64,000 nucleotides of DNA, taken from NCBI GenBank assembly GCA_017302015.1, contig JAFLEE010000002.1:4301-68300 (forward strand). The letters run 5' to 3'. Positions 13,176-15,309 of the stretch are shown here, piece by piece (position 1 is the first letter of the stretch; each line of letters opens with the position of its first letter). The notes beneath the pieces are model-generated. The model was not told the DNA's origin. It did no database searches and saw nothing but the letters and a program-made list of their open reading frames with translations. The DNA comes from Spirochaetota bacterium (GTDB lineage Bacteria; Spirochaetota; UBA12135; COTS27; JAFLEE01). The position numbers and the translations under genes were made by a program.

Positions 13176-13204
13176 TTGGCAAGAGAATTCACAGATCCTA
13201 TAAT
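13176..13204 (+). promoter_or_regulatory. Near-consensus sigma70 promoter for the Lys/Ala microprotein
   Basis: TTGGCA (13176-13181), a 17-nt spacer and TATAAT (13199-13204) form one of the strongest promoters in the window. The expected start is near 13211, giving a leader of about 58 nt before the ATG at 13269. Confidence 0.75.
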
Positions 13205-13268
13205 TAAGCAACTTTAACGGGTTCCGTTCGCGGGGCACGTTAAAAATTTACGGGGAGAGAGGGACACC

Positions 13269-13316
13269 ATGGCCAAAAAAGCCAAGAAGAAAGCCAAGAA
13301 AAAAGCCAAGAAGTAA
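13269..13316 (+). CDS. 15-residue Lys/Ala microprotein
   Basis: ATG at 13269 opens MAKKAKKKAKKKAKK followed by TAA. It has a purine-rich ribosome site (GGGGAGAGAGGGACACC) and a near-consensus promoter 65 nt upstream. The product is ten lysines and four alanines after Met, in an AKKK repeat like the tails of histone H1-like or HU-like DNA-binding proteins. It could bind DNA, RNA or acidic surfaces, or be the leftover of a longer histone-like gene. Against the latter, promoter, ribosome site and stop are all clean. An AACCC-GCTA-GGGTT hairpin directly follows the stop. Confidence 0.55.
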   Translation: MAKKAKKKAKKKAKK

Positions 13317-13592
13317 AACCCGCTAGGGTTCCTTCTCGGACGTTGGCGTGTCGAACGTGAGCGCAAGCTCCCGTTGCGGCGACGCCAGTTTCGAAACGGA
13401 AACACCCAGCAGCCGGGCCGAGCGTGCGAGCGCTTCGCTCCTTGTGAGCAGGTTCGACGCGATCCGGTTAAGGTCCTCTGCTCTGCACTGGATCTCCGGA
13501 ACGTTCCGGCTGCGGGTGTTTACCGTAAACTCTCCTTGTTAGTTTTTCTTGTCACGGTTCGCCCGCCTGTTTCCAGGTGTTTCAGGCGATCC
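13317..13592. other. Non-coding stretch with two perfect palindromes
   Basis: No supported gene. CCGGAACGTTCCGG (13496-13509) is a perfect 14-nt palindrome and GTTTAC-C-GTAAAC (13518-13530) is a perfect 13-nt inverted repeat only 8 nt further on. Both look like protein-binding operators, with a T-rich stretch (AGTTTTTCTTG) after them. Confidence 0.4.
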
Positions 13593-13676
13593 ATGATGAT
13601 TCATTTCCACTCCCACTCCCACTCCCACTCCCACTCCCACTCCCACTCCCACTCCCACGAAGCAGTCTTTGATTAA
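13593..13676 (+). CDS. Possible 27-residue His-Ser repeat peptide
   Basis: ATG at 13593 (or 13596) follows AGG with a 6-nt spacer and reads MMIHF, then eight His-Ser pairs, then HEAVFD and TAA. The reading frame coincides with the hexanucleotide repeat CACTCC, so it may be a chance ORF over a repeat. If expressed, the His run would bind Ni, Zn or Cu ions. No promoter was identified nearby. Confidence 0.3.
   Translation: MMIHFHSHSHSHSHSHSHSHSHEAVFD
13608..13658 (+). repeat. (CACTCC)8 hexanucleotide tandem repeat
   Basis: Eight uninterrupted copies of CACTCC followed by CAC. Copies are identical, which suggests recent slippage expansion. The hexamer period keeps the His-Ser frame intact whatever the copy number. 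Confidence 0.9.
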
Positions 13677-14199: not shown

Positions 14200-14274
<75 letters not shown>

Positions 14275-14280
14275 TTTCCC

Positions 14281-15309
14281 ATGCATAAGTGGCTTTTCCT
14301 GCCTGCCGCCTCCGTCTTTGAGACGGGCAAATCCGCCTCTCCATTCCGCACGGGGGCCTGCCGCGCGCTTTGGAAGCTCTCCGAAGCCGGCTTCGCCTTC
14401 GCATTTACCGTCGGCGAATCGGAGTCGAAGCGGCTGAAGAAAACGGCCCTCGACCATGATTTCCGCGCCGCGCACTTCGTTCGGGAAAGCCTCATGGTCG
14501 AGTTCATCGCCTCGGGTTTCCAGCCCGCCAAGTCGGGCAAGGATGGGCTCACCGACGCCAGTTCCTTCTTCACGCGCCACAGGGTCGATTTGAACTTATC
14601 GCTGGCCTTGGTTCCTCTCCCCCTGGCCTTGCCGAAAGAAATCGCCTCCCTCCACCCTGGCCCCGATTGGGGCGAGACGGTGACGCGGGTGCTCGCCCGG
14701 CCCCGGCGCGTTGAGATCCACCGGAAGACGAAGGAGACCGACATCCACCTCGTCCTCAACCCGGACGGATCGGGGCGTTCGTCCATCCACACCGGGATCG
14801 GGTTCTTCGACCACATGCTCGAGCAGGTCGCCCGCCACGGGGGGATGGACCTCAAGATCGATTGCAAGGGCGATCTTCACATCGACGCCCACCACACCGT
14901 GGAAGATACCGGGATCGCCCTCGGCGAGGCCCTCCGCGCCGCCGTCGGCGACAAGCGCGGCCTGTCCCGTTACGGCTCTTCGGCGCTCGGAAAGAAGCTC
15001 GAGACCGTGAGCCTGCTCCTTCCCATGGACGAGTCCCTGGCCACCTGCGCCCTCGATTTCTCCGGCCGGTCGCACCTCGTCTTCCAGGGCAAGTTCCGCC
15101 GGGAGAAGGTGGGCGACCTGCCGGTCGACCTGATCAAGCATTTCTTCGAGGCGGTCGTGCAGAACGCGGGGATCAACCTGCACCTCACCGTGCGCGGCGA
15201 AAACGACCACCACCAGGTCGAGGCGGCCTTCAAGGCCTTCTCGCGCGCGCTGCGCCAGGCATTCGTGCGCTCCGGCCAGGAACTCCCCAGCACCAAGGGC
15301 GTCTTGTAG
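14281..15309 (+). CDS. hisB: Imidazoleglycerol-phosphate dehydratase with vestigial HAD domain
   Basis: A 342-residue protein. Residues about 143-342 are a complete IGPD: KETDIHLVLNPDG, HTGIGFFDHMLEQVARHGG, DAHHTVEDTGIALGEAL, and NDHHQVEAAFKAFSRALR. It dehydrates imidazole glycerol phosphate in histidine synthesis. Residues 1-142 follow the course of the HAD histidinol-phosphatase half of bifunctional E. coli HisB (355 residues): WLFLPAASVF stands where FIDRDGTL should be, GACRALWKLSEAGFAFAFTV matches the GVIPELLKLQKAGYKLVMIT region, and WGETVTRVLARPRR matches the linker. The catalytic aspartates are missing, so phosphatase activity is probably lost. ATG 14281 has no Shine-Dalgarno and lies 6 nt after the tRNA. 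Confidence 0.9.
   Translation: MHKWLFLPAASVFETGKSASPFRTGACRALWKLSEAGFAFAFTVGESESKRLKKTALDHDFRAAHFVRESLMVEFIASGFQPAKSGKDGLTDASSFFTRHRVDLNLSLALVPLPLALPKEIASLHPGPDWGETVTRVLARPRRVEIHRKTKETDIHLVLNPDGSGRSSIHTGIGFFDHMLEQVARHGGMDLKIDCKGDLHIDAHHTVEDTGIALGEALRAAVGDKRGLSRYGSSALGKKLETVSLLLPMDESLATCALDFSGRSHLVFQGKFRREKVGDLPVDLIKHFFEAVVQNAGINLHLTVRGENDHHQVEAAFKAFSRALRQAFVRSGQELPSTKGVL

Follow-up and report, generated by a model that had tools for sequence, protein, structure and literature searches.

Lysine- and alanine-rich sequences that are disordered and strongly basic are familiar in bacteria from the histone-H1-like proteins, which include Hc1 and Hc2 of Chlamydia, BpH1 of Bordetella and the tails of AlgP and PhaF in Pseudomonas. 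These are proteins or domains of at least 100 aa (about 100–240 aa with many repeats in the H1-like and Hc1–Hc2 family), usually with proline and often with a folded or helical partner domain. Among far smaller products, bTHX and L41e are ultra-small ribosomal proteins, tiny and very basic, and leader peptides of the trpL and hisL type are encoded by short ORFs behind a promoter, with codon runs for one amino acid. Hc2 is between 165 and 237 aa in length, depending on repeat number (PMC2848022), and the AlgP tail, fragments of which bind DNA, is required for polyphosphate (polyP) granules to be spaced properly (PMC9239181).

Here we describe a spirochaete gene with a product of only 15 residues that has the Lys/Ala-rich, tail-like composition of the H1-like proteins, but neither their length nor their proline. 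It resembles a set of free-standing ORFs from other lineages, referred to here as the K/A class, whose entire product is 10–24 aa, usually Pro-free and made from an autonomous transcription unit; like Hc2, members of this class vary in length by repeat number. The chemistry of H1-like tails is known; the same chemistry as a stand-alone micro-gene appears to be new.

Anatomy of the miniature gene and its predicted expression signals

All the parts of a miniature gene, namely a predicted promoter, a ribosome site, an ORF and a 3′ hairpin, occur together in the window (the whole stretch of DNA that was analysed, 64 kb in length). Its features are as follows:

13176..13204, + strand: predicted sigma-70-type promoter, TTGGCA-N17-TATAAT (11/12 consensus match)
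13213..13244 (about), + strand: 5′ leader hairpin at the predicted transcript 5′ end (−14.3 kcal/mol, z −2.6; same in the full-length fold)
13252..13264, + strand: purine-rich ribosome site GGGGAGAGAGGGA (from sequence; unpaired in the centroid fold)
13269..13316, + strand: micro-ORF MAKKAKKKAKKKAKK and TAA (reading frame; 12-nt ×3 repeat with synonymous changes)
13343..13388 (about), + strand: strong 3′ hairpin, followed by just a short run of T (−39 kcal/mol for 13317–13400, z −3.1; from the fold)

The ORF runs from the ATG at 13269 to the end of the TAA at 13316 and comprises 16 codons including the stop (ATG GCC AAA AAA GCC AAG AAG AAA GCC AAG AAA AAA GCC AAG AAG TAA). Following the start Met, the product consists solely of lysine (10 of the 15 residues) and alanine (4 of 15). 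An in-frame stop lies 17 codons 5′ of the ATG, with no ATG, GTG or TTG in between that could serve as an alternative start. The ORF is built from three copies of a 12-nt tandem unit that differ just at synonymous third positions. From base composition, about 4 × 10−10 all-A/K frames of this kind are expected in the 5.43 Mb genome, a figure that ignores repeat expansion and, because the ORF is itself a repeat, understates the ways in which such an ORF can arise. The gene is present as a single copy in this 5.4 Mb, 165-contig genome.

The promoter (TTGGCA at 13176–13181, a 17-nt spacer and TATAAT at 13199–13204) is the sole sigma-70 match at 11/12 or better within the window, and would start transcription near 13211. 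Within the purine run, GAGG is placed 6 nt 5′ of the ATG. The predicted fold leaves the ribosome site and the ORF mostly unpaired, with hairpins on both sides. The 3′ hairpin is a candidate weak terminator or mRNA-end stabilizer; its T run is poor and a consensus terminator scan did not pick it up. The original prediction, of a clean 16-codon frame for a 15-residue AKKK peptide with the composition of an H1-type tail, behind a strong promoter and a purine-rich ribosome site, is thus borne out in each of these elements; it had included neither of the two hairpins.

We rejected the possibility that the ORF forms the end of a longer gene, with or without a frameshift. The in-frame stop and the intervening promoter argue against a truncated gene, and a Pfam search of the frames of the non-coding stretch around the micro-gene gave no match. 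No longer in-frame form of the peptide exists in its own genome. The original prediction had suggested looking there for longer AKKK-tailed proteins, and just one such tail was found, on a 247-codon frame. Four HU-type matches are likewise present in this genome, so the K/A peptide is not its sole basic nucleoid-type protein.

Upstream of the micro-gene are a 113-aa frame without a Pfam match and a PilZ gene; downstream are a tRNA-Arg at 14201 (880 nt away) and then hisB at 14281. The same non-coding stretch of approximately 1.7 kb also holds a perfect CCACTC repeat (8.7 copies, 13607–13658), 290 nt downstream of the micro-gene.

Lysine/alanine micro-genes within and beyond the phylum

The gene is isolated in its own lineage: it is missing from two genomes of the same order and one of the same class, and no relative carrying the exact gene was found. 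Using a strict pattern on 393 Spirochaetota genomes we recovered one true counterpart, in a Brevinema-like MAG, which brings the K/A micro-ORF to 2 of 393 genomes of the phylum. The counterpart, MAAKKKAKKAKKKK, lies downstream of plsY and has its own TTGACT-N17-TATATT promoter and a GGGAGG; a run of T comes after its strong hairpin. The search of relatives for the short ORF with its promoter, suggested in the original prediction, gave a comparable design in this MAG but not the exact gene. Several other candidates in the phylum were rejected. A match in G002, from the same order, is the AKKKP C-terminal tail of an 80-aa protein (L292:5840-6070), a different gene that shares the (A/P)KKK repeats but carries them at the C-terminus of a coiled-coil-like protein, with other neighbours and without micro-gene anatomy. 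AKKK matches in G001 and at G002:1793616 were out of frame or internal, and the pattern first applied to the phylum otherwise matched only by chance or out of frame (G162, G031, G132, G074 and G288). A loose RMN pattern gave mostly unrelated K/E/D/T/N-rich starts, and its reversed-pattern controls also gave matches.

A single pattern scan of the genomes of 84,980 species, in which the pattern fixed Ala at residue 2, matched at least 119 places. Among the matches listed, 72 of 119 stand alone as ORFs no longer than 24 aa, encoding 57 distinct peptides, with 61 at 85% A/K or more; another 36 start longer ORFs, 7 are possible tails and 4 are out of frame. The K/A class is defined as free-standing ORFs of 10–24 aa with at least 85% A/K (776 K and 301 A class-wide). 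The window gene falls within this definition and has the promoter, ribosome site and 3′ hairpin of a class member, its T run being weak. The ratio of 72 free-standing ORFs to 7 possible tails among the matches listed supports the original reading of a free-standing short gene, for which the opposing outcome was that the same DNA would end a longer gene in relatives.

Among the matches listed, K/A micro-ORFs come from roughly ten bacterial phyla as well as from DPANN archaea (Gamma-, Beta- and probably Alphaproteobacteria, Acidobacteriota, Nitrospirota, Nitrospinota, Desulfobacterota-type, Bdellovibrionota, Planctomycetota, Verrucomicrobiota, Omnitrophota, Goldbacteria, Patescibacteria, Spirochaetota and DPANN archaea), in which single taxon assignments may be wrong because many carriers are MAGs. 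The gene had been treated as a singleton; by design, it joins a widespread class. This membership appears to be one of design, not of provable homology, because repeat expansion can give rise to Lys-rich peptides of low complexity again and again, which leaves common descent unproven. Two acidobacterial genomes have two different K/A micro-genes each (L132 and L146; L133 and L147), with differing leaders. On viral contigs, the same pattern gave a result that contrasts with the cellular matches, with 52 of 102 possible tails and 20 of 102 free-standing ORFs. Viral contigs L171, L176, L179, L185, L208, L214 and L234 encode free-standing Lys/Asn/Arg-rich microproteins of 22–23 aa, of the MAKKKKAKKKNKKKKKNKKKRK type.

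Purifying selection on class members in other lineages

Expression signals are enriched around the K/A ORFs. A ribosome site is found at 86% of 73 K/A loci compared with 18% of random ATGs, a terminator at 51% (2% in the control), a promoter at 34% (6%) and a 3′ fold with z < −2 at 71% (7%); loci of the same lineage are not independent, so that the 73 loci are not 73 separate events. In a gammaproteobacterial group, 13 distinct 16-mers show clear purifying selection (pS 0.57, pN 0.015, pN/pS 0.026), and other same-length sets mostly have pN/pS values of 0.07–0.17, with one set of three at 0.39. As the search pattern constrains part of the peptide, the cleanest test is one that is independent of it. 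A search with the gammaproteobacterial promoter and leader, without any K/A or length condition, matched 12 of the 147 genomes of the order, and all 12 encode a K/A microprotein, of 16, 17, 21 or 22 aa. Independent ORF-pattern matches in this order, of 15–22 aa, are again behind the same promoter. An acidobacterial leader-only pattern matched 3 of 120 genomes, all with K/A microproteins, and a betaproteobacterial leader pattern recovered just its own source, giving no promoter-only support in that group. Among these microproteins, length changes by whole codons and the flanks are conserved, which is the behaviour expected of translated peptides under selection.

Searches of Pfam and NCBIfam with E values up to 10 found no match for four class members of 20–23 aa (the window 15-mer is too short to scan), and a PDB search gave no match. 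Neither the peptide strings nor any H1-like microproteins were found described in the literature searched, which included few subscription papers. A global microbial smORF catalogue predicts ORFs from 30 nt (PMC11364881) and may hold K/A ORFs unnamed; its text does not mention lysine-rich peptides and describes no such class. A length under the usual gene-calling cutoff, combined with a Lys density that leaves no usable tryptic peptides, means that both standard annotation and standard proteomics would miss the class. We propose tentatively, at a little under even odds, that prokaryotes across many phyla, including DPANN archaea, encode undescribed stand-alone Lys/Ala microproteins of 10–24 residues that are ribosomally made polycations acting as chromatin-like free tails, with the window gene as a spirochaete member. 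If this is true, few known autonomous protein genes would be smaller, and these would be recurrent in distant phyla, strongly selected and nearly invisible; an H1- or HU-like basic tail could exist as its own gene, and would offer a simple genetic system for the effects of free polycations on the nucleoid, RNA or ribosomes.

Proposed role and competing explanations

We consider it probable (roughly 0.6) that the window feature is a genuine autonomous micro-gene that makes a polyanion-binding Lys/Ala polycation. Transcription from the consensus promoter would yield a short mRNA that is bounded by hairpins on both sides and has an accessible ribosome site, and from it a 15-residue Lys/Ala peptide with a charge of roughly +10 would be translated. 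As 10 of the 15 residues are Lys and the only hydrophobic ones are Ala and the initiator Met, such a peptide could bind little except polyanions. By its charge, this genetically encoded polycation would most likely bind DNA and/or RNA, with ribosomes and polyP as the main alternative targets; the original prediction had likewise raised nucleic-acid binding as a possibility. By analogy with a free histone-H1 or HU tail, our best guess is that it would neutralize and condense the DNA or RNA that it binds. An antimicrobial role was judged unlikely, given that the product lacks both a signal peptide and a hydrophobic face.

Ribosomes contain other polybasic proteins of very small size, and the peptide could accordingly be a ribosome- or translation-associated micro-component similar to bTHX or L41e, with rRNA or tRNA as its target and not the nucleoid. 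This is unlikely, though the likeliest of the alternatives. The class is present in DPANN archaea too, and the gammaproteobacterial promoters have GC-rich discriminators (CGGNCC) directly after TATACT, which are typical of growth-rate-controlled translation genes. However, the window discriminator is AT-rich and the neighbours are non-ribosomal, and bTHX and L41e are Arg-rich, fixed in sequence and universal in their clades, whereas the K/A class is repeat-like, length-variable and patchy: only 7 of the 97 genomes from one order carry it, which does not fit a core component of the ribosome, and its presence in 2 of 393 spirochaete genomes is far from clade-wide conservation. Somewhat less probable is that low-complexity expansion produced the window copy by chance, or that this copy is a functionless relic, whatever the class does elsewhere. 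Its threefold repeat, a second simple repeat nearby and its absence from relatives fit such an origin, but a promoter, ribosome site and ORF that are perfectly aligned, repeat units with only synonymous differences and the lack of an upstream coding remnant in Pfam searches do not. We give little credence to the peptide acting chiefly on polyP or storage granules in the manner of the Lys-rich C-terminal domain of AlgP. AlgP is H1-like and Lys/Ala/Pro-rich and sits at polyP granules, the spacing of which requires its tail (PMC9239181); the peptide has no granule-anchoring domain, and no polyP gene is among the neighbours examined.

It is similarly improbable that the ORF has a leader or regulatory function, in which its ten Lys codons would control a downstream gene by stalling ribosomes or sensing Lys-tRNA, despite the density of these codons and the leader-like promoter and hairpins. 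In three Patescibacteria (L069, L098 and L080) the micro-ORF is 69–258 nt upstream of secA, and in betaproteobacteria it is immediately downstream of lysA; both placements lend some support to a leader, but the latter puts the micro-gene after the lysine gene and not before it. The gammaproteobacterial group has a conserved synteny, with an EVE-domain gene upstream and rpiA downstream, and no neighbour gene common to all loci examined was found. The absence of a common partner, together with the finding that roughly half of the loci have a terminator immediately behind the ORF, argues that the product acts in trans and not as a leader. Unlike trpL and hisL, the window gene and its class have no lysine operon downstream and no antiterminator choice; synonymous codons swap freely (pS of about 0.57), an Rfam search of the window found tRNAs only and no known attenuator RNA family, and what follows the window gene is the distant tRNA-Arg and hisB, not a biosynthetic operon directly downstream. 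In the hisB product (gene at 14281–15309), the IGPD domain spans residues 171–324; the first approximately 160 residues, which have no Pfam match, resemble a HAD phosphatase domain whose DxD motif has been lost (FLPAASVFETGK).
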